Translations under genes and position numbers: made by a program
Shown here: positions 1-60,695 of the stretch, one piece after another
Layout: every line of letters begins with the position of its first letter
Position numbering within the stretch: position 1 is the first letter of the stretch
Notes under the pieces: model-generated
Told to the model about the DNA's origin: nothing
Seen by the model: the letters and a program-made list of their open reading frames with translations, nothing else
Databases searched by the model: none
DNA from: a virus
Virus record (IMG/VR): IMGVR_UViG_3300030333_005399
Span: 1 to 64,000 of that record
Reading direction: 5' to 3' (one strand)
Length of the DNA: 64,000 nucleotides

Positions 1-3000
1 CACCTGATTGTTTTAAAACGCCGTTAAAATATGGTATCGTAACTGGAGTAAGTCCAATATAAATAGTTCCGGTTCTTTGACCAACCATAAAACCGCTTAG
101 AGCGTCGTACGCTTCTTGATAATCCCCAGTGTAATAAGTATTATATGGTTGACTTGGAGCCCATTCATCTCTGAGCTGCTGTAAGGCATACCTAGAAAGA
201 CCATTTTGAACTCTATTTTGTAAGATATTGAAATCATTTGACAATGTAATCGGGTCTCCTTCTCCAGTATCTCCCGGATCATTTGGAACTGGAGCAAAAT
301 TAGAATGGTAAAATATCCAATTTGTACCACTCAGTCCTAAACCTTCTTGTACATCTTCGGGCCACTTATTAAATTTTGACACTATCGCAGGTACAAAATT
401 AAAGAGATCTAAGTCGAACCAGTCTGGCCACGTATTGTTACTTGCATCGTTCATCCAAGAGCTCATTTGTGGATAAAGTAAATCTAATATATCTAAAAAT
501 AGATTAATCCTGTTTATATCATTAACGGATCCTATTGGAAATCCATCAGATGATTCTGAACCTGCAAACTGGTTTGGATTATTGTAGACACCTTTGATGA
601 TTGGAAACAGCATTTGTTTTGCAATAACATCGACCGATGGAATAGAAATATTATCGTATAATCCTGCTGCGTCTGCTGGATTGTATTGTGGCTCTAATAT
701 TCTACTACCAACAGCTCTGTAAAACGAGGCTCTAATTCCTTTTCGTCTTCCCAGTTCAAAATCTGTCGGTTGAGATTTCATTTTAAATCTAACGCGTACA
801 GTATCTCCATTTTGAATATTGTGTGTAGCTAAACTTTTTCTTAATATGAATCTAGTAGATAGCTCTCTATGTGCAAAGTTAGGATGATCTATTCCCTTTC
901 CACTCTCTCTTCTTGGGTCTGGTCTATTTCTATGTTCAAAGAAGTTTATCTCTGGGTCTGTACTATTTATAACCGCATTTGCAGCTTCTTTCATTGGTTC
1001 CAAAATAAACTCTTGATGATTTATGTCTGGAAAAACTAGAGCAGGATCTTCGTTTACTCCTGCATCTTTTTGCCAGTGAACATGATAACCAATGTGACCA
1101 GTACCAGCGTGTCTAGAGGAATTATCACGGGACCTTCTAAAAGATGTCCAATCGAAATCGATGTGTCTTCCTATATATGCATTTGTAAAATCGCGATCAA
1201 ACATTTTAACACCTTCTTCATCCTGCATTTCGATCGCTTTATGGTGTAAATTTAAATCCCAACCAGTCTCTATAAAATCTTCGTCTGGTTTATTAAACAG
1301 TCCTCGTGATCCAGACTCTTCACCAGTTGGAGAATAATCCCATCTAGAAATTGTTTCCTCTACTACATCCGTTGTTTCTAAAACTTGTGTAAAATCGTTA
1401 GTGGCTATACCGTTTGCTATTGTAATAGTTCCACCAACCATTTTGTTCGTAAATGTACCCTCATTTTCAGGAAATTCATTTACGGTTATTATGTCATCGT
1501 TAAATTTTATTATGCCGTTAATTGGTGTTTCTATAACTCCATCGTTACCATTTGTGTCATTTCTATGATATTCGGTAGCAACTGCTCCTCTTTGTAACTG
1601 AGCACCTGACATTTCAATTGGTATTTCTTCTAACTGATTTATTACTTGTGTTACATTGTCACCGCTACCCACAAAAATTGGTAAATCACGAACTGCATTT
1701 CTAGGATCTATGTTTATTCTTAATAGTAATCCACGATTGTCAAAAAAGTCTGGGGTAAATGTTACTGAAAATCTTTCCCATTCCCCTGTACATGTAAAAT
1801 TCTGTCTGGTATCCCATCCAGTTCCCCACGCTCCAGTCTTTATCAAACAGCTTACGACTGTTCCTTCCTCAGCCTTCATATAAAAACTAAACGTATGTGT
1901 TTGTCCTGTTAGGTCTAAACCTATTCTTACAAAATCCCCTTTAAATAGCCATGGTGTAGTTTCAATACCTGATGCACCAAATATTATTGACTGATCAGAA
2001 ACCCCGTTTGTACTTTGATACCTTTCGTTATATGCTTCGTTTGCTAAATCTCTGTTTGGTGTTCCTGTGGCTGCAAATAAATCGTTATATCTTAAACGTA
2101 TGCCAATTTGACCAATAGGACTAGAGATTAGTGATTGTTCTGCTCTAAATAGTGGATATGGGTTTGATCCATCCACATAACTTACCAAATCAAATGGAGA
2201 CGGCCATGCTTGCATAGGTCTAAAATTAGCACCAGTTTCGAAACCTTTATCGGCCAACAAATTAGGAACTAACTGCTCAACTTCAGAATCTGGTTCTACT
2301 TCAAATGTTTCCCTTATTTCTGGAACTTCTCTATTTCCCAAAAAGTAAGCATTGTTAACCCTAATTGCTCCATTTATAAATTCTCTTTTTACAGTGTTAC
2401 CGTTTAACAGAGACAACGTTAGATAATTTGAAGTTAAATCTTGCGCAAACTGGATAGATTCACCAACATCTGGAAAAACATTAAGACAGGTATATGCAGC
2501 TAATCTAAAATCTTCTAAGTATTTTTCATCATCTATAAAAGCTGGTATAACAACAGCTTCAGTCCTGTCAGAAGATATTTCTTTTAGTATGTACTTATTT
2601 TCTTTTACGTATAACCTGTCTTCTTCTAATGTTGATGACTGAGGATCATCTATGGACGCAAAGAAATATCCATCATCCGATTCCTCAAAAGGTCCTCTAT
2701 ATAATTTATCGTTTCCATTAACTAATACTGGAAATGGTCCACCTGCTTGAACCCTCATAAAATCCATTTCCAGAGTAAATCTTCCCTTTCTAAAACCTAA
2801 ATCCCTAAGAACAGTTCCTGGTTCTATATTAACTGATGGAGCTTCACCAAATGGAGATTCAACCATTATATCAGATGAAGTCTTGTATACAGTAGTTATC
2901 AGCCCACCTTGGTTACCGTAAATATTAATTCTAACAATGTCTTTTTGATCGGAGCCAAAAGAATGTTCTGGCCAATCTGGAGAACCATACGGTAAATCTG

Positions 3001-13203: not shown

Positions 13204-13327
13204 AATCGTTAATTTGCTTCTTTAATTCTAGTTTCTGTTCCTGTCTAGACTTACGTTTTTTCGTTTTGATTATTTTAGTCGTGGGTATCGGAAAGTCAGA
13301 CATCTTTGGTTTGTAGACTTTTTTCAT
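13196..13327 (-). CDS. Small basic protein
   Basis: A 43-residue Lys/Arg-rich protein (start MKKVYKPKMSDFPIPTTKII). The start overlaps the upstream stop as ATGA at 13324-13327 and the end overlaps the next gene by 8 bases, which supports expression by coupling. No family recognised; nucleic-acid binding is possible from charge alone. Confidence 0.55.
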   Translation of the reverse strand: MKKVYKPKMSDFPIPTTKIIKTKKRKSRQEQKLELKKQINDFV

Positions 13328-13566
13328 TCTTGAGCCTCCTCAAACCAAGGAATATCATCCCATTGATCATCATCGTCAAGTTGTAGATCTTCTAATAAAA
13401 GCTCAATATCTGCCCAATCTTTATTCTCCAATGCAGATTCTAAACGTAATATTATATCTTCTTTTTTCATGATGTAGGTCTCCGTCGTAGTTGCATTTAA
13501 ATACGCTAACGGTTGACTTACTGATGTAGATTTTTTATCGTAACCAATTGGTAAATTAATTTGCAT
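13324..13566 (-). CDS. Small acidic protein downstream of the selenoprotein gene
   Basis: An 80-residue protein. The ATG at 13566 overlaps the selenoprotein stop as TAATG. An internal ATG at 13470 would give a 48-residue form (MKKEDIILRLESALENKDW) that looks like the conserved, acidic, helical core, so the first 32 residues may be untranslated or a leader. The C-terminus is Asp/Glu/Trp-rich. Function unknown. Confidence 0.5.
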   Translation of the reverse strand: MQINLPIGYDKKSTSVSQPLAYLNATTTETYIMKKEDIILRLESALENKDWADIELLLEDLQLDDDDQWDDIPWFEEAQE

Positions 13567-13814
13567 TATGATACCTCTTCTAATCCTTCAATTAATTTTT
13601 CTATTTCATTTGGATTTGGAAACCTATTTTCTACTTCTTTACTGAATAATAAAGATGTTGCATTATTAGTATGGTGATACATTACTCTAAATATACCTCC
13701 ACTTCCCTTAATTAATTCGGCGTCAATTCCAAATCTAGATTTTAATGATTCTCTTACCCTAAGAGCTTCTAAATCGTAGCCTCAGGATGTACAATATTCT
13801 ATAGATATTTGCAT
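13566..13814 (-). CDS. selW: SelW/Rdx-family selenoprotein with in-frame UGA (selenocysteine)
   Basis: Reading from the ATG at 13814 gives 82 residues if TGA at 13782-13784 is selenocysteine. The start MQISIEYCTS is followed by U-G-Y; the CxxU motif is at residues 8-11 followed by GY, exactly as in selenoprotein W (human SELENOW has CGAUGY). The rest also follows the family: ALRVRESLKSRFGIDAELI, the GSGGIFRV turn, FSKEVENRFPNPNEIEKLI. SelW/Rdx proteins are thioredoxin-fold, thiol-directed redox proteins. GGAGG lies 5 bases before the ATG, and TAATG overlaps join it to both neighbours. A stem-loop fit for a bacterial SECIS follows the UGA. A sequencing error or nonsense mutation is the alternative, but one landing on this exact residue is unlikely. 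Confidence 0.85.
13747..13769 (-). promoter_or_regulatory. Candidate bacterial SECIS stem-loop
   Basis: Downstream of the UGA, the RNA can form CUCUU-AGGGU-AAGAG (stem 13761-13765 with 13751-13755, loop 13756-13760), with two more outer pairs (GA with UC) after a two-base internal loop. The apical loop begins 22 nt after the UGA and has a G as its second base. Known bacterial SECIS elements need a short stem with a small G-containing loop about 16-37 nt after the UGA, so size and position fit. Confidence 0.7.
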
Positions 13815-14035
13815 TATGCCTCCGCTATTTCAAATCCAAATTGTTTAACCGTATTTTCTTTGCTCTTTTTCATTCCCTTATGATAGTCCATCAATAAGGC
13901 AATAAACATGTTGGAGCACTCAACAGGAAAATCCACCGGAGTATCAGAGACACTATCTAACAAATCCTTATGTTTGTTGTACAACATTCTTGTTTCTAAG
14001 ACAAACATTTCCCAATCCAATATTCTATTTTCCAT
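13814..14035 (-). CDS. Small protein of unknown function upstream of selW
   Basis: A 73-residue protein from the ATG at 14035 (MENRILDWEMFVLETRMLY), chosen because AGGGA lies 8 bases before it; an ATG nine bases further upstream is too close to that site. The protein is helical with one Cys. It overlaps the upstream gene by 11 bases and the selenoprotein gene by one (TAATG). Function unknown. Confidence 0.55.
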   Translation of the reverse strand: MENRILDWEMFVLETRMLYNKHKDLLDSVSDTPVDFPVECSNMFIALLMDYHKGMKKSKENTVKQFGFEIAEA

Positions 14036-16380: not shown

Positions 16381-16511
16381 TATAATCCTAATGTGTCTAT
16401 TAATGTCCAGGTATCAAGTGATATACCAATGAATATTCCCATCATTAGACCAATACATATACCAATAATGATATAGCTAATCTTTTCTTCATCTGATAAA
16501 TTACGTATCAC
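16380..16511 (-). CDS. Small single-pass membrane protein overlapping the deformylase gene
   Basis: A 43-residue protein from a GTG at 16511 inside the end of the peptide deformylase gene (start MIRNLSDEEKISY), with one membrane helix (IIIGICIGLMMGIFIGI). GGGA precedes the GTG. It joins the next gene by TAATG. The other reading frames here are broken, which supports this one. Confidence 0.55.
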   Translation of the reverse strand: MIRNLSDEEKISYIIIGICIGLMMGIFIGISLDTWTLIDTLGL

Positions 16512-17130
16512 TTAATTCCCATCCATCGTTTAAAAATTTCTGTGCCTTCTTATACTTCAACACCTTTACTGAATCACCCTTTTTAATGGTAACCAATTCA
16601 TTTCTACCAATTTTCTTTTCTGCACGATAAGTCATATCAATCTTCCTATCCATACAAACTATTCCATTTAAATGGTCAATCTCGTGTTGAACACAAACAG
16701 ATTCCAACAGTCTTAGTTGTTCATCATCTCCATCTCCTTGTTCCCAACTACCTTTTCCATCTGTAGATGCAGGAGCTCCACTAAAATACCAATCGGCTTC
16801 TGATTGTTCTGTAGATATAATTACATCTCTGTACCTTTTTGTTTGCACTCCCTTACCTGGAAACGATAAGCACCCTTCATAATAACTTATTTCATTCTCT
16901 TTAGAAAGTATCTTGGGGTTTATTAGAACAAGAGGCTCCCTAACATTAACCACGGCAACATTCGCATCGATACCGACTTGATTAGCTGCCAAGCCAATGC
17001 CATCTTTTCGTTTGTTAAGAATCTCAAATAGTTCCCTAGCAATCTCTACTCCTTCTTCAACAGTAACGTTTCTTAATTTTTTGTTGATCACTGGATTGTG
17101 ATCTTTATTACAATTAATTACCTGTTTCAT
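16501..17130 (-). CDS. def: Peptide deformylase
   Basis: A 209-residue enzyme that removes the formyl group from N-terminal methionine. All three motifs are present: GIGLAANQVG (motif 1, with Asn where most have Pro), EGCLSFPG (motif 2, metal-binding Cys) and QHEIDHLNG (motif 3, HExxH metal and catalytic Glu). Between motifs 2 and 3 there is an insertion of roughly 30 residues (YFSGAPASTDGKGSWEQGDG and on), so it is longer than most phage deformylases. It overlaps a small membrane-protein gene as ATGA. Phage deformylases are common in marine T4-like phages. Confidence 0.93.
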   Translation of the reverse strand: MKQVINCNKDHNPVINKKLRNVTVEEGVEIARELFEILNKRKDGIGLAANQVGIDANVAVVNVREPLVLINPKILSKENEISYYEGCLSFPGKGVQTKRYRDVIISTEQSEADWYFSGAPASTDGKGSWEQGDGDDEQLRLLESVCVQHEIDHLNGIVCMDRKIDMTYRAEKKIGRNELVTIKKGDSVKVLKYKKAQKFLNDGWELSDT

Positions 17131-20482: not shown

Positions 20483-20953
20483 CTAACTTATCTTAACGAA
20501 GTTCTTCTTAGGCATCTTTTCTTCATGCTTTGGAATCTCTATGGACAAGATACCATCCTTGAAGTTAGCCTTTACACTGTCACCGTCTAATGAATCTCCT
20601 AAAGTGAACTTGCGTTCGAAAGCAGAATGCTTCAACTCTCTACGCAATACAGTTGCATCACTATCTTCATCAAAACCATGTTTGCTACCCTTGATTGTCA
20701 TAATTCCATCTTCAACCTCAACTTCTAGATTCTTTTTATCGATTCCAGGAATTTCTGCAACTACACCAACTTTGTCATCGTATTCGTATACGTTAACCTT
20801 TGGATATGCTGTACCTTGAAATGGATTGACACCAACAGTTTTAGCAACTTCTGGAAAGTTGTCTTCAAACATGCTGTCAAACAGTTTATCAAACGGTGTT
20901 AAAAAATTATCTCTTGAAATACCAGGAAAACTGGTGTATCTAACTAAGCTCAT
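20483..20953 (-). CDS. Small heat-shock protein (Hsp20/IbpA family)
   Basis: A 156-residue alpha-crystallin-domain chaperone. The N-terminus holds DKLFDSMF; the domain runs from about residue 48, with VGVVAEIPGIDKKNLEVEVE and the C-terminal GDSVKANFKDGILSIEIPKH hallmark (GxLxI.iPK). It ends KKNFVKIS, with no classical I-x-I tail. A strong AAGGAGA site precedes the ATG. Hsp20 genes occur in most marine T4-like phages, where they may help scaffold or virion assembly; this is inferred. Confidence 0.93.
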   Translation of the reverse strand: MSLVRYTSFPGISRDNFLTPFDKLFDSMFEDNFPEVAKTVGVNPFQGTAYPKVNVYEYDDKVGVVAEIPGIDKKNLEVEVEDGIMTIKGSKHGFDEDSDATVLRRELKHSAFERKFTLGDSLDGDSVKANFKDGILSIEIPKHEEKMPKKNFVKIS

Positions 20954-31958: not shown

Positions 31959-32074
31959 TACTTAAACCTGTTGTGAATGTCTTCTAGTAAATGTATGAAT
32001 GCTATACCAAACACCATCAGTCCACTGAACTGAATCATGGATAGACCGTCTGCCCACATTATAAAGTCACCCAT
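31958..32074 (-). CDS. Small single-pass membrane protein
   Basis: A 38-residue protein (MGDFIMWADGLSMIQFSGLM, VFGIAFIHLLEDIHNRFK) with one membrane helix. GGAG lies before the ATG inside the end of the SGNH-like gene; the stop overlaps the PLP-enzyme GTG. Confidence 0.55.
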   Translation of the reverse strand: MGDFIMWADGLSMIQFSGLMVFGIAFIHLLEDIHNRFK

Positions 32075-33030
32075 TCTGAATTTCTCCTGTAGTATGGAGG
32101 TGCTGTGTGTACAGAACCACCTAGTTCCATGTAAGTTTTAGCGTACTCTTCCCCATCCATAGTGTACCTCTCGACTGGTGGGGCAATCAAAGGAAAGTCC
32201 CACTGTTTAACAGTATTCATTATCTCAAACGTCTTCTTAAACCTTTCATCCCTACTTCCGTAGAATGGTGTACCCTTAAAGAAACCAGTCTTAGGAATCT
32301 TACGACCTTCGAACTCGACGGGCACCGGGGCACCAATTTCGACGGTCACGCCGATACGGTCGCGCAAGCGATTAGCTTGTACACGGTACTCTTCTAACAG
32401 CTTACCGAGATCAACAGACTCGGGTCGACAGAGGTGATGACGTACATCGATGCTTCCCAAACTGAGAGTTATTACCTCCACACTGGGTGCCACTTCGATA
32501 TCGTCGAGCAACCTCTCCTTTAGTACACCGTAAAGCGTTCTTCCATCCTTCTTTAGAACAGCAGCTTTGGAAGGTGCGTAAGCAGGAGTATGAGAATCTC
32601 CCCAACACAACCACTCGTGACCCAAACCAGCATGATCCATGTAAGGTACGTGATAGCACCAATCGCTTAACTGCTTGCACCACTCTTCGGTAATCTTTTT
32701 ACTCGTACTCGCAGCCTTGAGTCTCTTAGCCAAGAACGCACCGTAATCGGGCATCTCCCAATCCAAACTCGTGACGCGGTCGGGCGACACACCCATCAAA
32801 CGGTCGAAGCGTTCCCAAACCTCGTCTCCAGCACCAGCAAACAGGTTTAAGGCACCGGACCAGTTAACTCCATGGTCGAGGTACACGGTATCGTAATTCA
32901 ATACCTCTTCGGTACAGCGTTCGTTTATGTCCGCGTCCAAACGATCGGCCCATGTCAGAGACCAACCCCTTACGTGGGACTTCTCGTGCATGGGTATGTT
33001 AGTCGCGGGACTTGTTATAACCTTACTCAT
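32059..33030 (-). CDS. SGNH-hydrolase-like protein
   Basis: A 323-residue protein. CWGDSHTPAYAPSKA (GDSH at residues about 144-147) fits block I of SGNH/GDSL hydrolases, ITLSLGSIDVRHHLC fits the region of block III (Asp replacing the usual Asn of GxND), and GGSVHTAPPYYRR could supply the late catalytic His. Such proteins are esterases or acyl transferases acting on glycans or lipids. Base composition is richer in G+C than most of the window, with more CGG/CTG-type codons, so a different origin is possible. GAGGTTTCTAATG leads the gene. Confidence 0.6.
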   Translation of the reverse strand: MSKVITSPATNIPMHEKSHVRGWSLTWADRLDADINERCTEEVLNYDTVYLDHGVNWSGALNLFAGAGDEVWERFDRLMGVSPDRVTSLDWEMPDYGAFLAKRLKAASTSKKITEEWCKQLSDWCYHVPYMDHAGLGHEWLCWGDSHTPAYAPSKAAVLKKDGRTLYGVLKERLLDDIEVAPSVEVITLSLGSIDVRHHLCRPESVDLGKLLEEYRVQANRLRDRIGVTVEIGAPVPVEFEGRKIPKTGFFKGTPFYGSRDERFKKTFEIMNTVKQWDFPLIAPPVERYTMDGEEYAKTYMELGGSVHTAPPYYRRNSEWVTL

Positions 33031-33034
33031 TAGA

Positions 33035-33060
33035 AACCTCTTTCTTTATTATATATATTA
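33035..33060 (-). promoter_or_regulatory. Degenerate promoter-like leader
   Basis: The minus strand reads TATATATAATAAAG followed by AAAGAGGTTTCTAATG. This matches the -10/leader end of the early modules (TATAATAAATAAGAGGTTACTAAATG-type) but lacks ATGTACAT and TAGATTCTA. Confidence 0.4.
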
Positions 33061-33078
33061 CTCAAATCTCTCAAAATG

Positions 33079-33561
33079 CTATTTAATTTTCTCTAAGTCC
33101 CACTTGTCCCACAAAGCGTCTACGTAATCCTTAGCGGACTTGAGACTGACAGTGTGACCGTACCACTTATCGGTAAAGGCCCTGTACTCCTTGATAGCGG
33201 CTATCTTGTTCTTGGGGTAGAACTGCTTTAGACCCTCGGTGGCTGCGGTCTTTGGTACCGATAACCTACCGAACACTGCATACTTCTTCCACAGACAGTT
33301 AGCCTGAGTCTTCTCGGCCCTAGATAACCCGGTCTTGGAGTGCTCGAAGTTATCGAATACTACAGCCGAGTGTAGATCTGCTTTGAACTCGTCGGTGTGT
33401 AGGTAAAGCTGACCTGTCTTTTCAGACTTGGCCATCTCTGCCCAGCGGAGGATCCTGCGGATTAGGGTCTTGGTTAGAGGTTCTCCTGCCTCCTTGAGCA
33501 CCGTGTTAGGGTTACGTCGGGCCCAAAGATCGTCTAGGTTGTAAAGGCTTTTGTAGTCCAT
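33079..33561 (-). CDS. Protein of unknown function in the G+C-richer block
   Basis: A 160-residue protein from the ATG at 33561 (MDYKSLYNLDDLWARRNPNT), which overlaps the zinc-ribbon stop as TAATG and has GGAGG upstream; a longer reading to 33609 lacks this support. It is helical and basic (RILRWAEMAKSEKTGQLYLH; KQFYPKNKIAAIKEYRAFTD). No family recognised. Confidence 0.6.
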   Translation of the reverse strand: MDYKSLYNLDDLWARRNPNTVLKEAGEPLTKTLIRRILRWAEMAKSEKTGQLYLHTDEFKADLHSAVVFDNFEHSKTGLSRAEKTQANCLWKKYAVFGRLSVPKTAATEGLKQFYPKNKIAAIKEYRAFTDKWYGHTVSLKSAKDYVDALWDKWDLEKIK

Positions 33562-33689
33562 TATGTTAATGTTCCTCCATTTGTCTTTTCCACTACGCAA
33601 AACAGGCAAAGCTTAGGGTAGAATATCATCCTGCCGTCTAGCCGTTTGCCGCACTGCGAGCATTTTTTATGTTTAGTAGGTTTCTTCAT
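33561..33689 (-). CDS. Zinc-ribbon microprotein
   Basis: A 42-residue protein (MKKPTKHKKCSQCGKRLDGR and on) with two Cys pairs, CSQC and CLFC, spaced as a zinc ribbon. The TAATG overlap with the next gene and the GGAGG inside its end support translation of both. Probably binds zinc; partner unknown. Confidence 0.65.
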   Translation of the reverse strand: MKKPTKHKKCSQCGKRLDGRMIFYPKLCLFCVVEKTNGGTLT

Positions 33690-33849
33690 ATTATATGAAT
33701 GGGTGTATATATTCAACCTGGGGTAATAAAATCATCGTGGTGGTAAAATAGGCTTGTGCACGTATAAAAAAAGTAATTCGATTCCGATTTCCGCCAGGGG
33801 CGGCCCGATGTGGGCCACCTACCTGGGGACTTGAGGTTACCAGTCTCAA
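33690..33849. other. Non-coding region with GC-rich inverted repeats
   Basis: No gene is seen. Two inverted repeats lie in tandem downstream of the AAA+ gene: GGCCC/GGGCC around 33803-33822 and CCGCC/GGCGG around 33787-33802, followed on the minus strand by a run of seven T about 20 bases on. They may end transcription of the AAA+ gene, although the T-run is not adjacent to the stems. Confidence 0.4.
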
Positions 33850-35001
33850 TTAAGCTTCCTCGCTTACGTCTTCGAACAGCTCGTCGGATGAACCGTCGTC
33901 AGTGTACTTTTGCAGTAGCTGCTTGACGAAGGTTCTCTCCGACTCGACTCCACCGGCCGCATCGAACTTGGGAAGTACTGCTACCTCGGCAGACTCAGTC
34001 AGTGTAAACCCGTCGTAGAGCAAGCTTGCTATCTCTACTGTGGATCGGGTACTTATATGGGTGGATAACCTGCCCTCTTCCGAACTAGACTCGCTGCGTG
34101 TAATGAATGCAAGCTCTGCCACGTTTTCGATTAATTCGGCTTTTACATTTGGGTATAACCCACTTAGTAAGCTTACTTCCTGTTCTTTGTTCAAGACGTC
34201 CATCTCAATCTGTGTGAACCTATCCAGTAGAGCTCTGTCGAGAACCCTTGTCGCGGTATACTCGTTACCGATGTTAGCAGTAGCGATAAAAGTAACGCCT
34301 TTTGCTACGTTAATAGTAGCCTGGCCGTCAGCCTCGTCTAACCTGAGATACCTCTGTCCTTCGTCTAGTACTGTCATAAGGATATTCCAAGCTTCAGGAT
34401 GAGCTCTTGATAACTCGTCGAGTAATATAACCGCGTTCTCAGTCTGGATAGCTTTAACGAAAAGCGCTTCTGAGAAGTAAGTGCCTTTCTCTTTGTTATA
34501 ATGTGTATTACCGATAAGGGTAGCACGTGGATCCTGTGTGGAACCTAAGTTAAAGTAGAACTCAGGTCTGTCGAGAGATTTAACTAGACTCTTTGCAGCC
34601 ATAGTCTTACCACACCCGGCGGGACCAGTCATCATAATGTTCTTACCTCTCATCGCAGATCTTACTAAGTACTTCCACTTAACCTCATTCATGATAAGAC
34701 TATTTGGCTTAAGCTTGTAAGAACTGTGTATATATGACAAAATGTCATTATGATCTTCGCTGACGTCTTCGGTAACCGTGACGACTACAGCTTGTTCATC
34801 CCACTCAGACTTAGTAGCAGGCCTCCAAAAGATACGCCCAGTGCTACCAGTCTTACGTACTGCATAACCAGTATCGGCTAAGATCTGTTTACGTTTATAT
34901 GACGGCATCTCCTTAGAGTAGTCAGTGCCATTTTGACATACTGCTCTGGTGCGACTGCCGACAGTTTCAATTTTTACTATTACATTTGTGTTTGAGTTCA
35001 T
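33850..35001 (-). CDS. cobS: AAA+ ATPase, CobS/MoxR-like
   Basis: A 383-residue AAA+ protein. Walker A GPAGCGKT is at residues 126-133, Walker B is NAVILLDELSRAHPEAWNIL, sensor 1 is FIATANIGNEY, and the arginine-finger region is VLDRALLDRFTQIEM. This is the phage CobS-like type, related to MoxR chaperones that work with a VWA-domain partner. That partner is the CobT-like gene 1.7 kb upstream (36741-38774). A role in cobalt chelation is not required; remodelling of a protein target is equally likely. It is led by promoter module E. Confidence 0.88.
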   Translation of the reverse strand: MNSNTNVIVKIETVGSRTRAVCQNGTDYSKEMPSYKRKQILADTGYAVRKTGSTGRIFWRPATKSEWDEQAVVVTVTEDVSEDHNDILSYIHSSYKLKPNSLIMNEVKWKYLVRSAMRGKNIMMTGPAGCGKTMAAKSLVKSLDRPEFYFNLGSTQDPRATLIGNTHYNKEKGTYFSEALFVKAIQTENAVILLDELSRAHPEAWNILMTVLDEGQRYLRLDEADGQATINVAKGVTFIATANIGNEYTATRVLDRALLDRFTQIEMDVLNKEQEVSLLSGLYPNVKAELIENVAELAFITRSESSSEEGRLSTHISTRSTVEIASLLYDGFTLTESAEVAVLPKFDAAGGVESERTFVKQLLQKYTDDGSSDELFEDVSEEA

Positions 35002-35019
35002 TTGGTAACCTCTTTATTT

Positions 35020-35085
35020 AATTTCTATTAGAATCTACACGTAAAAACCGGTTAATGTACATGCTTTTTTTTAAAAAAATGCGTT
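35020..35085 (-). promoter_or_regulatory. Early promoter module E
   Basis: Minus strand: A-tract, ATGTACAT (35055-35062), CCGG, 17 bp, TAGATTCTA (35029-35037), then GAGGTTACCAA and the ATG at 35001. The TATAAT seen in modules B-D is not conserved here. Confidence 0.78.
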
Positions 35086-35090
35086 TTTTT

Positions 35091-35450
35091 TCAATAAATA
35101 TCGGGAGGCATATCTGAATAGTCTCGGGTGTCGGAGTACTCTTCATCATCAGGTTTGTCGTAGTAGTCATCGGATACACCGCGGGACTCCATACTACCAG
35201 TTACTACCCCGCCGCCGGGCTTAAAGCCTGAATTGTACACTATACCGTCGCCGTGCTTCCTTAGATGAGTGTTAACCTTACGCCGCTCCATAAAGTCTAT
35301 CAGATCCTGCTCGTCGAATAAAACCTTGCTGTTGCTGCGTACGCCCATCTTTATATAGGGAAGGACTCCTTTCCTCCTGTACCCGTCTATGGTAGACTCG
35401 GTCATGTGCAACATTTCCGCGGCTTGCTTTTTTGTAAGATATTTTGGCAT
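35091..35450 (-). CDS. MerR/excisionase-type helix-turn-helix protein
   Basis: A 119-residue protein. YLTKKQAAEMLHMTESTIDG plus YRRKGVLPYIKMGVRSNSKV is the HTH_17 (excisionase/MerR-like) fold: LTKKQAAEMLHMTESTIDGYRR is the HTH and the following wing is basic. The C-terminal half is Gly/Asp/Tyr-rich and likely disordered. Probably a DNA-binding regulator. It ends 5 bases before promoter module E; autoregulation is possible. G+C-richer than most of the window. Confidence 0.75.
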   Translation of the reverse strand: MPKYLTKKQAAEMLHMTESTIDGYRRKGVLPYIKMGVRSNSKVLFDEQDLIDFMERRKVNTHLRKHGDGIVYNSGFKPGGGVVTGSMESRGVSDDYYDKPDDEEYSDTRDYSDMPPDIY

Positions 35451-35642
35451 AGTATATATGACACCTTGGCTTAAAAAAATTTTCTCTGAACGAACGCGAG
35501 CTTACTCACCATACTCTCCTGGATCATAGATTTTCTTATGAATAAGTATCGATTAGTCTACATTTTTCACAAAGACCAGTGCTGCTATATCGGCTCCATA
35601 TTCGATTGGGGTGCGACAAACTCTATAACCTCTAGACCTATA
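35451..35642. other. Stretch without a convincing gene
   Basis: On the minus strand only very short readings occur, for example MVSKLAFVQRKFF behind CAGGAG (35468-35509 region) and a TTG-started 27-residue reading containing CEKC. None has enough support. An AAGGTG site precedes the HTH gene at its end. Confidence 0.35.
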
Positions 35643-35789
35643 TTAGCGGTACCATATACTCCATATTACTAGACTGATAAACCCGATAACGTGTACCCAA
35701 AACAGGACTTGCCACGCCATCCACAGTACGGGGACCATTAGTACCGTGATACCTAGGATTACGAGTCCCTCTTTACTTTGCCAGCTCAT
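35643..35789 (-). CDS. Small membrane protein
   Basis: A 48-residue, Trp-rich membrane protein (MSWQSKEGLVILGITVLMVP and VLWMAWQVLFWVHVIGFISL) with two possible helices. It overlaps the end of the zinc-ribbon gene by 17 bases. Confidence 0.55.
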   Translation of the reverse strand: MSWQSKEGLVILGITVLMVPVLWMAWQVLFWVHVIGFISLVIWSIWYR

Positions 35790-35997
35790 TAGGATCCACC
35801 TCGGCTCCGCAGTCCCTACACACGTTTACTTGAAGTTGAATTAGTTCGCTTTTACCCGTTGGGCTCTGTATAGCGGATATTCGTTTCATTCTAACGGCTG
35901 ACTCGAATAAGAGGCATCCACACTCCTTGCATCCTACGTCTTCGAGTGTACTTGGATCTATCTGTAATGGTGTTCCTTGTTGCGGTATGTTCTGCAT
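35773..35997 (-). CDS. Zinc-ribbon protein
   Basis: A 74-residue protein. CKECGCLLFESAVRMKRISA and CRDCGAEVDPNELAK give two CxxC knuckles about 35 residues apart, typical of the small zinc-ribbon proteins found in marine T4-like phages. Function unknown; zinc and nucleic-acid binding likely. Confidence 0.7.
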   Translation of the reverse strand: MQNIPQQGTPLQIDPSTLEDVGCKECGCLLFESAVRMKRISAIQSPTGKSELIQLQVNVCRDCGAEVDPNELAK

Positions 35998-35999
35998 TA

Positions 36000-36128
36000 T
36001 TATCCTTTCGCTAACTGCAAATTTGTTAACTCGTTACGGTTCTCCCACATAAGGATCACCCATTCTTCCACGCGATCCCATCTTACTTTCGTTCCACGGG
36101 TACCGGGGAGTTGAAATAGTATGCGCAT
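36000..36128 (-). CDS. Small basic protein
   Basis: A 42-residue protein (MRILFQLPGTRGTKVRWDRV, EEWVILMWENRNELTNLQLA). Strong SD-like AAAGGATAATA of the next gene lies at its end. It starts 4 bases after the upstream gene's stop. Function unknown. Confidence 0.55.
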   Translation of the reverse strand: MRILFQLPGTRGTKVRWDRVEEWVILMWENRNELTNLQLAKG

Positions 36129-40192: not shown

Positions 40193-40450
40193 AGCTGGTT
40201 TCAAACCTAAATCACCTAAAAAATCTGCCCATCCGACTTCATCCTCTGGTGGTGCTTGTGGAATTCCTAACGAATCTAACAATTCCATATAGCTCATTTT
40301 CTTTGTTACTTCACTATGTAACCTCCCTAGTTTTATTAACATATCTTCATTTTCTTGAAATAATTCCATCATCATTTCTATTGCCCATATACACTGATTT
40401 AACTGATGACCAGTGATTAAAAACATATCGTCTTTTCTATAATACTTCAC
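40169..40450 (-). CDS. Small protein of unknown function
   Basis: A 93-residue helical protein (MFLITGHQLNQCIWAIEMMM) with a Lys/Gly end. It overlaps the tRNA-bearing gene by 14 bases. Function unknown. Confidence 0.55.
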   Translation of the reverse strand: MKYYRKDDMFLITGHQLNQCIWAIEMMMELFQENEDMLIKLGRLHSEVTKKMSYMELLDSLGIPQAPPEDEVGWADFLGDLGLKPADKKGGKK

Positions 40451-40982
40451 TCAACAATATCCTTTGCTGCTTTTTATTATGTGAATGTACAAATGTTAAA
40501 TGGTTGTTTATATTAGACTTGGTGATCAATGTGATTTCGTCTTTAGAATATAGATCATTAACATAGTCGACACTCTTATGATAACCATCTTTGATAAACA
40601 TTTTAATAGCAGTTCTCATAACATCTTTGATTGAGCGGGTGGACGGAATCGAACCGACAGCATCAGCTTGGAAGGCTGAGGTATTACCACTATACGACAC
40701 CCGCAGTTTTTTCTTTTCTTTGTTAGCGTAATAATCTTTTAACCATCTATCCCATGATCCACTACCTTTTGCAACCTTACTACCACCAACACTACGTCTA
40801 TCCATTCTACGTAGACTATTTTTAGTATCACTACTTACTGGTTGTACATAACCACCAGTCTTGTGTGGATATACGATGTGAGCTGAATACTTCTCCACAT
40901 CACTACATTTAGTACATTCTTTGTATCCTAAATGTATCCTTGTGTGTGGCATAAACTTACCACACGATTTGCAATTATTCAT
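40437..40982 (-). CDS. Zinc-ribbon protein whose reading frame spans a tRNA gene
   Basis: A 181-residue reading with a zinc ribbon at the N-terminus (CKSCGKFMPHTRIHLGYKEC then TKC) and a C-terminal helical part (SIKDVMRTAIKMFIKDGYHK). Residues about 93-117 (RVSYSGNTSAFQADAVGSIP) are encoded by a tRNA-Gly gene on the same strand, yet the frame stays open. Either the tRNA was inserted in frame, or two shorter proteins once flanked it. Processing of the tRNA by RNase P would cut this mRNA. It is led by promoter module G. Confidence 0.6.
   Translation of the reverse strand: MNNCKSCGKFMPHTRIHLGYKECTKCSDVEKYSAHIVYPHKTGGYVQPVSSDTKNSLRRMDRRSVGGSKVAKGSGSWDRWLKDYYANKEKKKLRVSYSGNTSAFQADAVGSIPSTRSIKDVMRTAIKMFIKDGYHKSVDYVNDLYSKDEITLITKSNINNHLTFVHSHNKKQQRILLSEVL
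40634..40704 (-). tRNA. tRNA-Gly (anticodon UCC)
   Basis: A 71-nt cloverleaf: acceptor GCGGGTG/CACCCGC, D-arm GTAT/ATAC with AGTGGTA loop, anticodon arm TCAGC-CTTCCAA-GCTGA (anticodon TCC), T-arm GTCGG-TTCGATT-CCGTC with one T-T mismatch. The 3' CCA is not encoded (TCA follows). It lies inside the frame of the 40437-40982 gene. Confidence 0.93.
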
Positions 40983-43085: not shown

Positions 43086-43523
43086 TTATTGTCCTTCGTA
43101 TATTTGAGGTACTTCAGCTAACTCGAATGCAAGAGAATCGTAAGTGTAATACCATATCTCATCATTTCTGCGTTGGTGATATAATCTACCTTCACCATCA
43201 GATTCGATATTGTATTGCCATTCACCATCAACATCTGGGATTCCCAATAACATGTTGATCTGAACGTTACGACTCCTGTTGATCACTTCGAGTGGATTAT
43301 ATGGCCACGCCTCAAGTCCTGTAGACATTAATGTCTCAGCTGCATGTTCCTCTAATCCTGCCCAAATCATATCAGCGAATGCTTTCTCAGCTGATGCCTC
43401 AGCGTTATCGACTGTGTCTTGATAACGTGGTATAGCGACTGCTGCTAAGATTCCAAGAATGATTGTGACCATCACTAGCTCAATCAATGTGAAACCTTTT
43501 GATGTATTCTTTAATATGTTCAT
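43086..43523 (-). CDS. Type IV prepilin-like protein
   Basis: A 145-residue type IV pilin or pseudopilin from the ATG at 43523, preceded by AGAAAGGAA. The leader MNILKNTSKG is followed by FTLIELVMVTIILGILAAVA, the prepilin peptidase motif with Gly at -1, Phe at +1 and Glu at +5. IPRYQDTVDNAEASAEKAFA continues as in PilA/GspG pilins. There is no C-terminal Cys pair. It would need host PilD and an assembly system. Its hairpin terminator and shared operon with another prepilin suggest acquisition as a unit. Confidence 0.88.
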   Translation of the reverse strand: MNILKNTSKGFTLIELVMVTIILGILAAVAIPRYQDTVDNAEASAEKAFADMIWAGLEEHAAETLMSTGLEAWPYNPLEVINRSRNVQINMLLGIPDVDGEWQYNIESDGEGRLYHQRRNDEIWYYTYDSLAFELAEVPQIYEGQ

Positions 43524-43557
43524 GTTCATTTCCTTTCTGGACTTTGTCCGTTGTAAA

Positions 43558-47173: not shown

Positions 47174-47181
47174 TATTTATA
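47174..47181 (-). promoter_or_regulatory. T4-type late promoter element TATAAATA
   Basis: Minus-strand TATAAATA just after the stop of the 47177 glycosyltransferase gene. The RNA would start near 47168, a 24-base leader before the cysteine-rich peptide, and would run on into the nuclease gene. Confidence 0.6.
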
Positions 47182-47947
47182 CGCTTTTATCATTAGTTTT
47201 AGGGTCATGTTTTATGTAATCTCCCCACTTCCACTTAGCGTACTCATGACACTCTATCTCTGTCAACCTATTTGCTTCCTCCTGTTGTGTAGACTTCTGA
47301 GCTAACGACACGAAATGGTAGAAGTGAGATCGATATGATCTCATCATTCTTAAACCTGATAGCTTAGCCTTTAAAAAGAAATCCCAATCGGCGACTAACC
47401 CAGCTTGAGAAGGATAGTTTGTATCCCATCCTCCAAGATATAAAAATGCGTTCTTAGAAATTAACACGGGAAATGTTGAACCTGTAACATCAGTTTCTTT
47501 CTCAGATATACTGTCTTCGTAATCCCAAAATTTTTCCAAATCAAATGTTTTTGGATCTCGTCCTAAATCTTTTATGTGAAACTGTTCAAATATAGAATCG
47601 TACGGTTCTATATGATTTGGTGCTACAACCCAATTTTCATTACAATATAAAACTAACTTCTTATCCCAATCTCTTGGAAATACGTTATCGTCATTAACAA
47701 TTAAAACGTATGGTTGTGTTGCAGAACTAACACCGATATTGATTGCATGTCCTGTACCGTAGTTTTCATCTAACACGATATACTTTACCGTTTCGTATTT
47801 GTCAAGTACTTCTTTATTTATATCATACGTACCATCTACGACTACTATAATTTCTTCGTAGTTAGTCTTCATTCCTTCTACTGCAGATCGTAAACAAAGA
47901 TCTAAAGCTTCTGGTTCCTTATATGTTGGTATTATTACAGAAATCAT
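47177..47947 (-). CDS. Family 2 (GT-A) glycosyltransferase
   Basis: About 256 residues from the ATG at 47947, which overlaps the upstream stop as ATGA and has TTGGAG before it. MISVIIPTYKEPEALDLCLR is the GT2 start, VVVDGTYD and VLDENYGTGHAINIGVSSA the donor site, and LIVNDDNVFP the DxD-type motif. VADWDFFLKAKLSGLRMM resembles the acceptor-side acidic residue. Transfers a sugar to a glycan of the virion or host surface. Confidence 0.88.
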   Translation of the reverse strand: MISVIIPTYKEPEALDLCLRSAVEGMKTNYEEIIVVVDGTYDINKEVLDKYETVKYIVLDENYGTGHAINIGVSSATQPYVLIVNDDNVFPRDWDKKLVLYCNENWVVAPNHIEPYDSIFEQFHIKDLGRDPKTFDLEKFWDYEDSISEKETDVTGSTFPVLISKNAFLYLGGWDTNYPSQAGLVADWDFFLKAKLSGLRMMRSYRSHFYHFVSLAQKSTQQEEANRLTEIECHEYAKWKWGDYIKHDPKTNDKSV

Positions 47948-48636
47948 TGTGCACTCCAATCAGTTAGTGGAGACAACCATGCCGTTTCTCCATGAGTGGA
48001 AAAACCTGGAATCGATGATATTAGTAAATGTCCATTCTCTCTTAAATCTAAAAACATTTTAAAATCTTCTGGATATGTTGCAGTTGTCCACTTTCTTAGT
48101 ATAGGTTCTGTCTCTCTCAACACATCCACTCTTGCAGCAAATGTCATTGTTGTAGAGTTCGTTACTTTCCAATGACATGTCTTCGTTAAATAAACTCTTG
48201 TATCTTCAGCACCACCTTCACAGTATGGATTACCACCTTTACTTGGATCTAAGTATTTGTCTGGATGATCGTACAATGCAACAAAAGATGCTCCGAGATC
48301 TATACCTTCTTGAAGTACTTCTCGAGCTTGTCCTTTGTGGAGATAATCGTTTTCTAAAAAGTAAATATAATCTTCACCTTTAAACTGATCCAATGCCATA
48401 TCTAAAGCAATGTTAAATGTACCTGCGCCATGACCAACCTGCACTTTAGTTATACTACTCTTTGGAAACTCTTTACGTATCATCTTCATAGTTCTTGGTC
48501 CACAACCATCTGCAATTACATGAATGTTACTAGAACCAAACCTGAGTGATGCGTTAAATAAACATTTTTCGTTATTTATATAGTCTGGTTTTTCCTTTGC
48601 GTAACCACCATCAGATATTCTATATATTACTTTCAT
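47944..48636 (-). CDS. Glycosyltransferase-like protein (GT-A)
   Basis: A 230-residue protein. HVIADGCGPRTMKMIRKEF and VGHGAGTFNIALDMALDQF follow GT-A order, and YIYFLENDYLHKGQAREVL has an ENDY in place of DxD. EDFKMFLDLRENG could be the late acidic site. It overlaps both neighbours. Donor and acceptor are unknown. Confidence 0.72.
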   Translation of the reverse strand: MKVIYRISDGGYAKEKPDYINNEKCLFNASLRFGSSNIHVIADGCGPRTMKMIRKEFPKSSITKVQVGHGAGTFNIALDMALDQFKGEDYIYFLENDYLHKGQAREVLQEGIDLGASFVALYDHPDKYLDPSKGGNPYCEGGAEDTRVYLTKTCHWKVTNSTTMTFAARVDVLRETEPILRKWTTATYPEDFKMFLDLRENGHLLISSIPGFSTHGETAWLSPLTDWSAQ

Positions 48637-49768
48637 TGTATGTCCTCAATAATTCTTCTATGTATATGTTTTTAGCACAAAAATCTATTCCACCAGCAAG
48701 TGTTGTCTTTATAAATTCTCTATCTTGTTCGAAACTGTTAACTATTTCTATCATGTCGACTTCAGTTGGATCAACCAAATAATTGTAATCGTAAAAATTA
48801 CCGACCTGTCCAGTTCCTTCAATTACTATCGTTCTCTTACCAAACTGTATAGGTTTAAACGCCAACGTTGATAATGCGCTCACCACGACATTCGAATTTG
48901 CAACTAATGTGTTTATATCATCGCTATCTACAACAACCTTTCCATTTGGAATCAAATCCATTACGTACTCAATATTCTTTTCTCTGTTTGGATCGTCTAA
49001 TCGTGACTTAATTTTTGTGACTATTGGCAATCCATATTCTTGTGACATCTGTTCTAATTGCGTATCTCTCACAAACTGTTCATCTAATGCTCTAGAAAAT
49101 GGATGAGATCTGTTACCTAAAAAATTAGGTATAACCAATATGTGTTTGTCTACATATCCGATACTAGTTTGATGTTCGTAATATAAATCAAACATTAAAT
49201 CGTTAGCTGGTATTCCACCAACTAAAACATCGTTTGTATCGAAAACTTGCGAGAATATTTGTTTCTCTTTTTCCCCAAATACAAATATTTTGTCAAATGA
49301 TTTCTTCATTCCATTATGACCGAATATTCCAGATTCGTTGAACTCTTGATTTCCATGGTGATTACCAATAACCAAACATCCGTTTTCTTTTGCCTTTCTA
49401 TACAACGCTGGCATCTTTAGTTCTGGCATTTCCTTACAGTCATCAAATATTATTAATGGAAAATCTTGTACATCAACCCAATCATTTAAGTCATCTGCAA
49501 ATCTATCCCCGTGAAACCTAAATCCTGGACCATTTATGATATTCTTACAGTATACTTTGTACTTTTCCATATCTACAACTCTAGGATCTGAATCTCCATT
49601 CCACGGAGTCTTTGAACTATACTCACCTATCCTGAAGATTGTAATCTCAAATGTTTTAGATAATTTTGGAATTATTGGTAATATCTTTTCGCATACTCTT
49701 GGGTTGCTGAGTATCAATAAACATTTAGAGTATGGAGGATTTTTGAATACAAACTTTTTATCCGACAT
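48620..49768 (-). CDS. GT-B-type glycosyl/glycerophosphotransferase-like protein
   Basis: A 382-residue protein with two Rossmann-like halves. LVIGNHHGNQEFN, KIFVFGEKEKQIFSQVF, VLVGGIPANDLMF, VIPNFLGNRSHPF and NSNVVVSALSTLAFKPIQFG match the pattern of capsule-export/CDP-glycerol glycerophosphotransferase-like enzymes. It may add glycerol-phosphate or sugar-phosphate units. It overlaps genes on both sides. Confidence 0.65.
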   Translation of the reverse strand: MSDKKFVFKNPPYSKCLLILSNPRVCEKILPIIPKLSKTFEITIFRIGEYSSKTPWNGDSDPRVVDMEKYKVYCKNIINGPGFRFHGDRFADDLNDWVDVQDFPLIIFDDCKEMPELKMPALYRKAKENGCLVIGNHHGNQEFNESGIFGHNGMKKSFDKIFVFGEKEKQIFSQVFDTNDVLVGGIPANDLMFDLYYEHQTSIGYVDKHILVIPNFLGNRSHPFSRALDEQFVRDTQLEQMSQEYGLPIVTKIKSRLDDPNREKNIEYVMDLIPNGKVVVDSDDINTLVANSNVVVSALSTLAFKPIQFGKRTIVIEGTGQVGNFYDYNYLVDPTEVDMIEIVNSFEQDREFIKTTLAGGIDFCAKNIYIEELLRTYNESNI

Positions 49769-50468
49769 GTCTCATCGCCCTCGGTAGTGTAGCAAACTCA
49801 TCAGTTTTCTCTAAATTATTTTGTGGTTGATGAGCTATAAATGTTTTATTAATTCTGTTAACCTTAATTTCTGGCATCTTCCATAGAGAATAACAAAAAG
49901 ATATTTGATCTTCTGTGTTCCACTTAGCCGTCTCTTCAAACCACATCTCATTAAATTTTACAACGTTGTCATTGTTTCGTCTAAACAATATTCCATTCTC
50001 GTACAAGCCACGTCCTTCTGCGTAACCATCTTTTTTGTATTGTTCTGCTTGATTTATGACCATCTCAGCAGTATCTCTCTTTGTTCCTGGTCTCTGAAGA
50101 GCTGCTTGAGTTTCTTGATATATGCAAGTCCTATCACTGTGTGAATGTACAGCTACATCATGGTTTTCTAAATACTTCTCGGCTAACGATACTGGATCGT
50201 ATGCGAAATATATCTGTGCGTCCATCCAAAGCCATGCATCATAATCTGGTAACACTCTATGTGGAGCAGTTTTTATTTTTCTAGCTGACCATCTACCATC
50301 TCTCCAAACATCTGTCTTTCTTACATCCCAAAAATCTTCACTTATGTAGTCACTGTTTGTGTAGCAAATGTAATCTACACCATCCTTATCGTGTTCATAA
50401 TGAATTATGTCACCGTATAATTTGTTTGGATCATCAGTGTATAAAGCAGTAACAACTGCTAGCTTCAT
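49758..50468 (-). CDS. Glycosyltransferase-like protein (DUF616/TOD1-type)
   Basis: About 236 residues from the ATG at 50468, which overlaps the upstream stop as ATGA with GGAGGGG before it. KLAVVTALYTDDPNKLYGDI is the GT-A start; KTAPHRVLPDYDAWLWMDAQ holds the D-x-D-like site (WMDAQI). AVHSHSDRTCIYQETQAALQ is typical of the DUF616 group. Donor unknown. Confidence 0.7.
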   Translation of the reverse strand: MKLAVVTALYTDDPNKLYGDIIHYEHDKDGVDYICYTNSDYISEDFWDVRKTDVWRDGRWSARKIKTAPHRVLPDYDAWLWMDAQIYFAYDPVSLAEKYLENHDVAVHSHSDRTCIYQETQAALQRPGTKRDTAEMVINQAEQYKKDGYAEGRGLYENGILFRRNNDNVVKFNEMWFEETAKWNTEDQISFCYSLWKMPEIKVNRINKTFIAHQPQNNLEKTDEFATLPRAMRHVG

Positions 50469-51112
50469 GACATTCCCCTCCATGTTGCTCCGTTATTGGT
50501 GTAATAGTGATGAGCTCTAAGTTCTGGCCAATATAAGAATTCCTCTCCTCTACCAACCATATCTATTGCCCAATACCTATCTTCCTTACCCGAATATGAT
50601 TCTGGCATAGGATACTGCATTAATGTATCACGTCTATAAAAGCAAAAAGCATTATGTAGAAACAACCTATCTTCTATTTTGGAATGCATGTTAACTACGT
50701 CTTTTTCTCCGAAGTGTGACCAAATATAACGAGGTGTAATTTTCTTTCCCATGTAAATCGGAATTTGCTTTCCAAACACTGCACAATATGCATTTAGTTT
50801 CTTATAAAAGTTCCAACCAACTAAAGCCTTTATTTGACAATGAGCAGATAAAACTAAACATACTTCTTGATTGGCTTCCTTTACACCCATGTTTATAGAT
50901 CTTCCAGGGGTGTACTTGTCTTTTTCAATTGATATTATTTTAATATCTGCTCTGTCAACGAATAAATTTACTACTCCTAACGTATCATCAGTTGATTCAT
51001 TGTCTACAACAATTATTTCTGGATCGTTTAGATGATCCAAACATGATTGTATTGCAAAACCTATATGATCTTGTTCGTTCTTAGAACGTATTATAACCGA
51101 TACATTATCCAT
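50465..51112 (-). CDS. Family 2 (GT-A) glycosyltransferase
   Basis: A 215-residue protein. VSVIIRSKNEQDHIGFAIQS and IIVVDNESTDDTLGVVNLF are classic GT2; TPGRSINMGVKEANQEVCLV with LSAHCQI replaces the DxD region (SAHC, seen in some GT2 enzymes of NeuB-linked clusters). It follows the NeuB-like gene with an 8-base overlap, so transfer of a nonulosonic-acid-type sugar is one possibility. Confidence 0.85.
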   Translation of the reverse strand: MDNVSVIIRSKNEQDHIGFAIQSCLDHLNDPEIIVVDNESTDDTLGVVNLFVDRADIKIISIEKDKYTPGRSINMGVKEANQEVCLVLSAHCQIKALVGWNFYKKLNAYCAVFGKQIPIYMGKKITPRYIWSHFGEKDVVNMHSKIEDRLFLHNAFCFYRRDTLMQYPMPESYSGKEDRYWAIDMVGRGEEFLYWPELRAHHYYTNNGATWRGMS

Positions 51113-51905
51113 CGAATCTCCCAGTCATTATGTCTCTTGCTTCCTGTTCACACGGTAAATAATTATCACCATGACTGTAATTCATTTTTTCATACATGTC
51201 AATATAATCCCTTAACTTTCTTAGATCTTCTGGTAAAATGCTAAACTTATTATCCCTACCAGGTAAGGATTGATCTATCGTAAAATGTTTTTCTATTACG
51301 GTTGGATTGTATCCTAATGCTACCTTTGAACCTTCTATTCCTGGTGTATGATCGCTGTACCCTACTTCTGGAAAATATTTCCTTAGTGAGGCAATACGTG
51401 GTAGATTACAGTTTTCATAGTCTAATGGATACGCAGATATACAATGCAATATTACAAACTTTCCAACATCTAAACTTCTTAACGTATCTCGTATTTCATT
51501 AACTGAAGACGTACCAGTCGATAAGTATATTTTATCAAAGTTATAGTAACAGTAAGTTATGAGTTCCACGTTACGTGATTCGAAGCTAGCTATTTTTACA
51601 GTGTCGACTCCTATACTAGCTAGTAGTTTTGCATCTTCAATACTAAACACTGATGAGAAGAACGGTATACCGTATGATTCACTAAAATTCTTTAATGATA
51701 TATGGTCGTCTTTAGATAATTCTGCTTTCTTGTATATTTCTAACCTACCGTCATCGTCCCATGGTCCATGTTTAAGTCTTTGAACCGACCACGTTTGAAA
51801 CTTTACAAAGTCAGCACCATTATCCTTTGCCTTTTGTATCATTTGTTTCGCTAAAGCTAAATCACCCATGTGATTCCAACCTATTTCTGCTATTATCTTT
51901 GTCAT
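51105..51905 (-). CDS. neuB: NeuB-like nonulosonic acid synthase without SAF domain
   Basis: A 266-residue TIM-barrel enzyme. IIAEIGWNHMGDLALAKQMI, GADFVKFQTWSV, IPFFSSVFSIEDAKLLASIG, VDTVKIASFESRN, YLSTGTSSVNEI, ILHCISAYP and VGYSDHTPGIEGSKVALGYN, then VIEKHFTIDQSLPGRDNKFS are NeuB landmarks. NeuB condenses PEP with a 6-deoxy- or N-acetyl-mannosamine-type sugar. Usual enzymes are about 345 residues with a C-terminal antifreeze-like (SAF) domain; this one lacks it. Confidence 0.88.
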   Translation of the reverse strand: MTKIIAEIGWNHMGDLALAKQMIQKAKDNGADFVKFQTWSVQRLKHGPWDDDGRLEIYKKAELSKDDHISLKNFSESYGIPFFSSVFSIEDAKLLASIGVDTVKIASFESRNVELITYCYYNFDKIYLSTGTSSVNEIRDTLRSLDVGKFVILHCISAYPLDYENCNLPRIASLRKYFPEVGYSDHTPGIEGSKVALGYNPTVIEKHFTIDQSLPGRDNKFSILPEDLRKLRDYIDMYEKMNYSHGDNYLPCEQEARDIMTGRFDG

Positions 51906-52447
51906 TGTATTGCCTCTAAATCTTCTTTGTAATGTATGTCTACTGCTGAATCTTTAATGATACCCATTCTTTTCGAAACTGTTCCGTTTACTAAGTCATC
52001 GTATTTGAATATTCTGACAGATCCACTTCTTTTATATTTTTCATTCACTGTAACCAGGTCGTCGTATTTATTCGATACCATATAATCCAAACATTCGTCT
52101 AATGTGTTACTACGATTTGGGTTATCTGGTTGGAGACACACTACATAATCGTAATACGTATCTGAATTTTTTACGACAGCTAAATATACTTCTACTACCT
52201 CAACATCTCCACAAAGCGAAGAGTCCCGATAATGATGATACACTCCACGTGGTATCATCGAAGCTAATTTTGCACTTTCGGTAGATACAACTATAGTATT
52301 TAAATGACGTGTGTCCTTTGCGTAATCTATACTATGATGAAACAGAGGTTTGCCATCTAATTGCTGAATGTTCTTTTCTTTTAGTCTCGTGGAATCTAAC
52401 TTAGCTGGTATGATCGTTAATATTTTATAACGTCGTTTGCTTTTCAT
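51902..52447 (-). CDS. neuA: NeuA-like CMP-sugar cytidylyltransferase
   Basis: A 181-residue protein. LTIIPAKLDSTRLKEKNIQQ, then LDGKPLFHHSIDYA, and IVVSTESAKLASM match the nucleotidyltransferase start of CMP-N-acetylneuraminate synthetases (IPARxxSxRLxxKN, GKPL). VVCLQPDNPNRSNTLDECLD replaces the usual LQPTSPLR. It activates the NeuB product with CTP. At 181 residues it is shorter than the usual ~230. ATGA overlap with neuB. Confidence 0.82.
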   Translation of the reverse strand: MKSKRRYKILTIIPAKLDSTRLKEKNIQQLDGKPLFHHSIDYAKDTRHLNTIVVSTESAKLASMIPRGVYHHYRDSSLCGDVEVVEVYLAVVKNSDTYYDYVVCLQPDNPNRSNTLDECLDYMVSNKYDDLVTVNEKYKRSGSVRIFKYDDLVNGTVSKRMGIIKDSAVDIHYKEDLEAIQ

Positions 52448-55008: not shown

Positions 55009-55009
55009 T

Positions 55010-60078: not shown

Positions 60079-60093
60079 TTATTATATATATTG

Positions 60094-60687: not shown

Positions 60688-60695
60688 ATAACCTC

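Follow-up and report, generated by a model that had tools for sequence, protein, structure and literature searches.

The stretch of DNA analysed here, called the window throughout, comprises 64,000 nucleotides of a viral record in IMG/VR (IMGVR_UViG_3300030333_005399, positions 1 to 64,000). On its minus strand, wedged between two small reading frames, lies a gene of the SelW/Rdx family whose frame is broken only by a TGA triplet. The features of the locus are as follows.

13566..13814, minus strand: selW-like selenoprotein gene, 82 residues including one putative selenocysteine (Sec), stop codon TAA; supported by translation with TGA as U, by the Rdx match and by eight further contigs
13782..13784, minus strand: in-frame TGA, residue 11, the putative Sec of the CTSUGY (CxxU) motif; from direct reading and conservation in the copies
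13819..13823, minus strand: ribosome-binding site GGAGG, 4 nt 5' of the ATG, found also upstream of selW in the related contig L003
13814..14044, minus strand: upstream ORF, without a Pfam match, whose TAA overlaps the selW ATG (TAATG)
13324..13566, minus strand: downstream ORF, without a Pfam match, whose ATG overlaps the selW TAA; it holds the same position in contigs L003 and L071
13751..13765, minus strand: bSECIS-like hairpin CUCUUA-GGG-UAAGAG, apical loop 22 nt after the UGA; from fold, pairing and covariation

Translated with TGA as Sec, the gene reads MQISIEYCTSUGYDLEALRVRESLKSRFGIDAELIKGSGGIFRVMYHHTNNATSLLFSKEVENRFPNPNEIEKLIEGLEEVS, with a single TGA followed by the terminal TAA. The TGA replaces the second cysteine of a CxxC motif and is the sole break in the 82-residue frame. 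A sequence-only reading had proposed precisely this frame and this interruption, and had taken the ribosome site and the TAATG overlaps on both sides as signs of a gene in place; both claims held, with the coordinates exact and overlaps to both neighbours confirmed. The profile search that it proposed as a check was run, and the protein matches Pfam Rdx (PF10262) well above the curated cut-off (E=1.9e-16, 60.5 bits against 22.6), with residues 2-76 covering profile positions 1-73 of 74. The NCBIfam model CXXU_selWTH (TIGR02174) is likewise matched above its cut-off (40.2 bits against 34.2). The protein was not filed under the SelTWH_Campy equivalog (NF041051), for which its 65.6 bits fall below the curated cut-off of 88. 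An AlphaFold2 model built from the phage alignment predicts a thioredoxin-like SelW fold with a pLDDT of 90.6, in which the CxxU redox motif follows the first strand; all 21 PDB structures matched at E<=0.001 are SelW-related bacterial structures, the best being 2fa8 (TM 0.78).

Searches of IMG/VR with the protein and with DNA patterns identified eight further contigs, from eight other metagenomes, that carry the same gene (L003, at 77% identity, L012/L026, L021/L028, L023, L024, L025, L027 and L071). Counting the window, these nine contigs carry eight distinct sequences, as L023 and L024 are identical in protein and hairpin, and all are uncultured. The codon for residue 11 is TGA in every phage copy and cysteine in none, and C8-T-S-U11 is invariant among them; the same codon is also TGA in 17 of the 17 cellular copies first found. 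Frame, TGA and hairpin are all retained in relatives whose identity is 77% or less, so the selW frame cannot be put down to chance. No relative was found among the named phages of the collection searched, while the plasmids searched yielded only distant bacterial homologs (30-38%). A pattern search of the CxxUNYLP type returned no phage copy, and a looser UGY pattern returned mostly chance matches together with one new relative, L071.

The genomic setting is that of a phage. Baseplate wedge PHROGs and other phage genes surround selW in the window, which supports the phage origin that the sequence-only reading had inferred. ORFs of L023, read by eye, resemble gp32, UvsX and a helicase; together with the window's baseplate wedge PHROGs, they supply the structural and replication genes of T4 type that mark a T4-like tailed phage. 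In L003 and L071, selW sits at the same place as in the window, adjoining baseplate genes, while in L023-L028 it follows or lies near a nuclease (SNase-like) gene and its downstream neighbours vary. The gene therefore occupies at least two genomic sites in these phages.

Two observations concern the surroundings of selW in the related contigs. Just upstream of selW in L071 (9240-9370, minus strand), an ORF truncated where the contig ends has the translation EFTIAAYDESKDKNYIIFDGTEMARMPEPNEVEGLIEHFSEE before its stop. With 48% over 23 residues, it resembles the C-terminal part of another Rdx-like gene, and a tandem pair is possible. In L003, a tmRNA gene (2019-2439, plus strand; tag GNDQPTYAYAA) comes immediately after selW and one small ORF.

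The hairpin that follows the TGA was missed by the sequence-only reading, and its presence and conservation extend that reading. All phage copies share the consensus CUCU[U/C]A-G[G/U]N-U[A/G]AG[A/G]G, its apical loop lying 22 nt beyond the UGA. Published bSECIS rules call for a loop of 3-9 nt, a stem of 4-16 bp, a G in the first two loop positions, a distance of 16-37 nt from the UGA and a minimum free energy (MFE) of -7.5 kcal/mol or lower. The phage hairpins fit this geometry, with a 3-nt loop (GGG, GUG or GUU) on a 6-bp stem at 22 nt. In energy the window hairpin is borderline against the -7.5 rule, at -6.1 (45 nt) to -8.7 (60 nt) kcal/mol, and the phage set ranges from -5.6 to -8.1 over 48 nt. 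Single-sequence folding energy for the window hairpin is no better than that of shuffles, leaving the z-score uninformative, and an Rfam scan of the locus returned no matching model.

It is comparison among copies that carries the case for the hairpin. Within the eight phage sequences, all 48 of 48 cells are paired, with one compensatory change from U-A to C-G; the covariation signal from phages alone is modest. When 24 phage and bacterial copies are compared, pairing holds in 93% of cells, against 35-52% for slid versions of the hairpin, and the covariation score of 0.70 compares with a shuffled mean of 0.25 and was reached by none of 500 shuffles. Codons within the hairpin show hardly any synonymous variation, and after random synonymous recoding all six pairs survived in just 1.5-9% of the trials run for each sequence. 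Among the 2298 TGA triplets of the window, one alone has a bSECIS-like hairpin at the exact 22-nt register; at any allowed register the proportion is 1%.

Selection acts on the protein beyond the UGA. There, dN/dS is about 0.06-0.29, indicating purifying selection on the downstream sequence: the window and L003 differ by dN 0.16 and dS 0.57 (dN/dS 0.29), and the second phage group gives dN 0.006-0.04 and dS 0.06-0.63 (dN/dS about 0.06-0.11). It follows that the region beyond the UGA is translated and under constraint. A frame decayed around a stop in related phages would have refuted the sequence-only reading; none is decayed, all being intact with the same TGA and low dN/dS after it. UGA is not globally reassigned in this genome, since TGA terminates 17 of the 64 long minus-strand ORFs in the window. 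No suppressor tRNA was found in the phage record, in which tRNA-Gly(tcc) and tRNA-Ala(tgc) were the only tRNAs found, and a scan of the record for further selenoproteins produced no other convincing candidate. As a separate matter, the tRNA-Gly(tcc) is predicted at 40633-40704 (minus strand), inside a 181-residue ORF (40437-40982) on the same strand.

In a phylogenetic tree, the seven phage proteins placed group as a single clade (support 96/98), which sits among bacterial Sec-SelW proteins at the end of a long branch. This topology suggests that the gene was acquired once, long ago, and then passed down within the phages, although the tree resolves the bacteria poorly and contains no Campylobacterota. 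With bacterial SelW-like selenoproteins (PF10262; TIGR02174, NF041051), the phage protein shares the CxxU motif after an N-terminal strand, a GSGG[IV]F core, an [IL]FSK...RFP tail and a thioredoxin-like fold, and the bacterial genes have a SECIS hairpin at the same register. What sets the phage copies apart is their residence in phage genomes, the separate long-branch clade formed by seven of them, and the motif CTSUGY where most sampled bacteria have CxxUNY.

Decoding of the UGA would depend on the host, an inference that fits the absence of SelB, SelD and tRNA-Sec from the phage records, which are incomplete and in which SelA was not covered by the search. Matches to tRNA-Sec in these records fell below the cut-off and were set aside, those in G000 coinciding with ordinary tRNA-Gly and tRNA-Ala. 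As a control for UGA reading, SelB was present in all 17 of the 17 cellular genomes first found with Sec-SelW. A clue to the host comes from positions 43086-43529 of the window (minus strand), where a type IV pilin-like protein with an N-methylation motif is encoded; its best relatives are pilins of Neomarinimicrobiota. It matches 38 of 245 genomes of that phylum at 1e-12 (best 48% identity, 102 bits), against one of 229 (51 bits) at the same threshold in the proteobacterial class of G014, and none of 241 genomes of Planctomycetota at 1e-13. Sec-SelW is widespread in Neomarinimicrobiota and is carried by most of the best pilin-matching genomes, and SelB was found in 11 of the 14 pilin-matching genomes checked. 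Owing to the pilin matches and the Sec-SelW and SelB of these genomes, Neomarinimicrobiota (SAR406) is the leading host candidate, although the assignment is unproven and rests mainly on one gene at less than 50% identity.

The gene, the conserved UGA, the conserved hairpin, the selection and the predicted fold are thus established, and the explanation that best accommodates them, in our view with high confidence, is a phage-encoded SelW whose UGA is read as Sec by host machinery, though Sec insertion itself is inferred and no experiment bears on it. A T4-like marine phage would encode a selenocysteine-containing SelW/Rdx protein; during infection, host SelB and Sec-tRNA would bind to the hairpin immediately following the UGA, and Sec would be inserted at residue 11 by the ribosome of the host, likely a member of Neomarinimicrobiota. 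The predicted product, a small protein of thioredoxin fold carrying a Cys-x-x-Sec redox pair, may act as a selenol/thiol oxidoreductase, perhaps one that buffers or repairs the thiols of proteins while phage particles are being made. This last step is conjecture without substrate evidence, and so is anything said of the substrate or of what the phage would gain. The claim of the sequence-only reading that the phage carries a selenium-dependent redox protein in need of host machinery is accordingly supported, with Sec incorporation and biochemical role inferred only.

Other accounts of the TGA can be envisaged. That the gene is a pseudogene, or that the cysteine codon was misread in sequencing or assembly, might be entertained on the grounds that standard gene callers would split the selW frame, but the same TGA is present in nine contigs from different metagenomes (the window counted), dN/dS is low after it, the window retains the operon overlaps, and L003 and L071 are syntenic with it at this site. 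Recurrence in contigs from eight other metagenomes effectively excludes a base-calling error, and this account as a whole can be all but dismissed. Leaky readthrough of UGA is common in bacteria, and the hairpin alone is not strong evidence; a near-cognate or suppressor tRNA (Trp, Arg or Cys), or a recoded UGA, could in principle place an ordinary amino acid in the protein. Against this, UGA serves as a regular stop in the same genome, the record offers only the two tRNAs named above, the UGA coincides precisely with the CxxU residue and every copy has a co-varying SECIS hairpin after it, so we regard readthrough of this kind as highly improbable.

The UGA could instead be a regulatory switch, whereby Sec insertion is inefficient, most ribosomes stop after residue 10 and the gene serves mainly to couple downstream translation to the selenium state of the host. 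The TAATG overlaps on both sides would permit translational coupling, but selection on the full protein sequence is strong, and there is no fixed downstream gene to be controlled, because the neighbours differ in L023-L028; there is very little to favour this account. Decoding as Sec remains the preferred reading, and it admits a bolder form that we consider probable: a marine T4-like lineage whose hosts are probably Neomarinimicrobiota would have retained a SelW of its own solely in the Sec form, constituting the first described phage-encoded selenoprotein family, with the benefit of the gene tied to selenium decoding by the host.

Both the protein family and the decoding mechanism are already known. 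What is new is that the gene sits in phages, that Sec is the only form kept there and that the phage proteins have a clade of their own. In the open-licence PMC literature searched, which leaves most subscription journals out of scope, no previous description of a selenoprotein encoded by a phage came to light, and phages and viruses go unmentioned in a 2026 review of prokaryotic selenoproteomes. SelW-like proteins are among the most abundant marine selenoprotein families in GOS surveys (PMC2398784, PMC9402790), the relevant sections of which report no phage SelW; the later of these surveys states that, outside the RNR II, plastocyanin and Cu-Zn SOD families, viral sequences are few or absent. 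Phage genes touching Sec decoding have precedents in the tRNA-Sec of Basilisk-like Bacillus phages (PMC6145125) and of the huge phage 1-SewaA (PMC10747093). In those cases a tRNA gene is reported and the relevant sections name no selenoprotein gene, whereas the phage of the window has a selenoprotein and no tRNA-Sec was found. Eukaryotic poxviruses have glutathione peroxidase selenoproteins that use host Sec machinery. These resemble the proposed phage SelW in being virus-borne selenoproteins, but differ in their eukaryotic host, protein family and SECIS placement in the 3' UTR.

If the Sec reading is correct, selenium is a trace element exploited by phages, and genes of this kind are broken unnoticed when viral contigs are annotated by standard means. 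UGA-coded redox genes could then be sought systematically in virus collections. A further, testable idea is that these phages require hosts able to decode Sec.

Elsewhere in the window, genes for a peptide deformylase and an HSP20 protein lie at 16501-17130 and 20483-20953 (minus strand), and similar genes occur near selW in related contigs. GC content reaches 0.458 within 32001-36000, against about 0.34 elsewhere. A long run of sugar-metabolism-like genes, including one for a NeuB family protein, extends over 47177-60700 (minus strand) and probably represents surface glycan genes.
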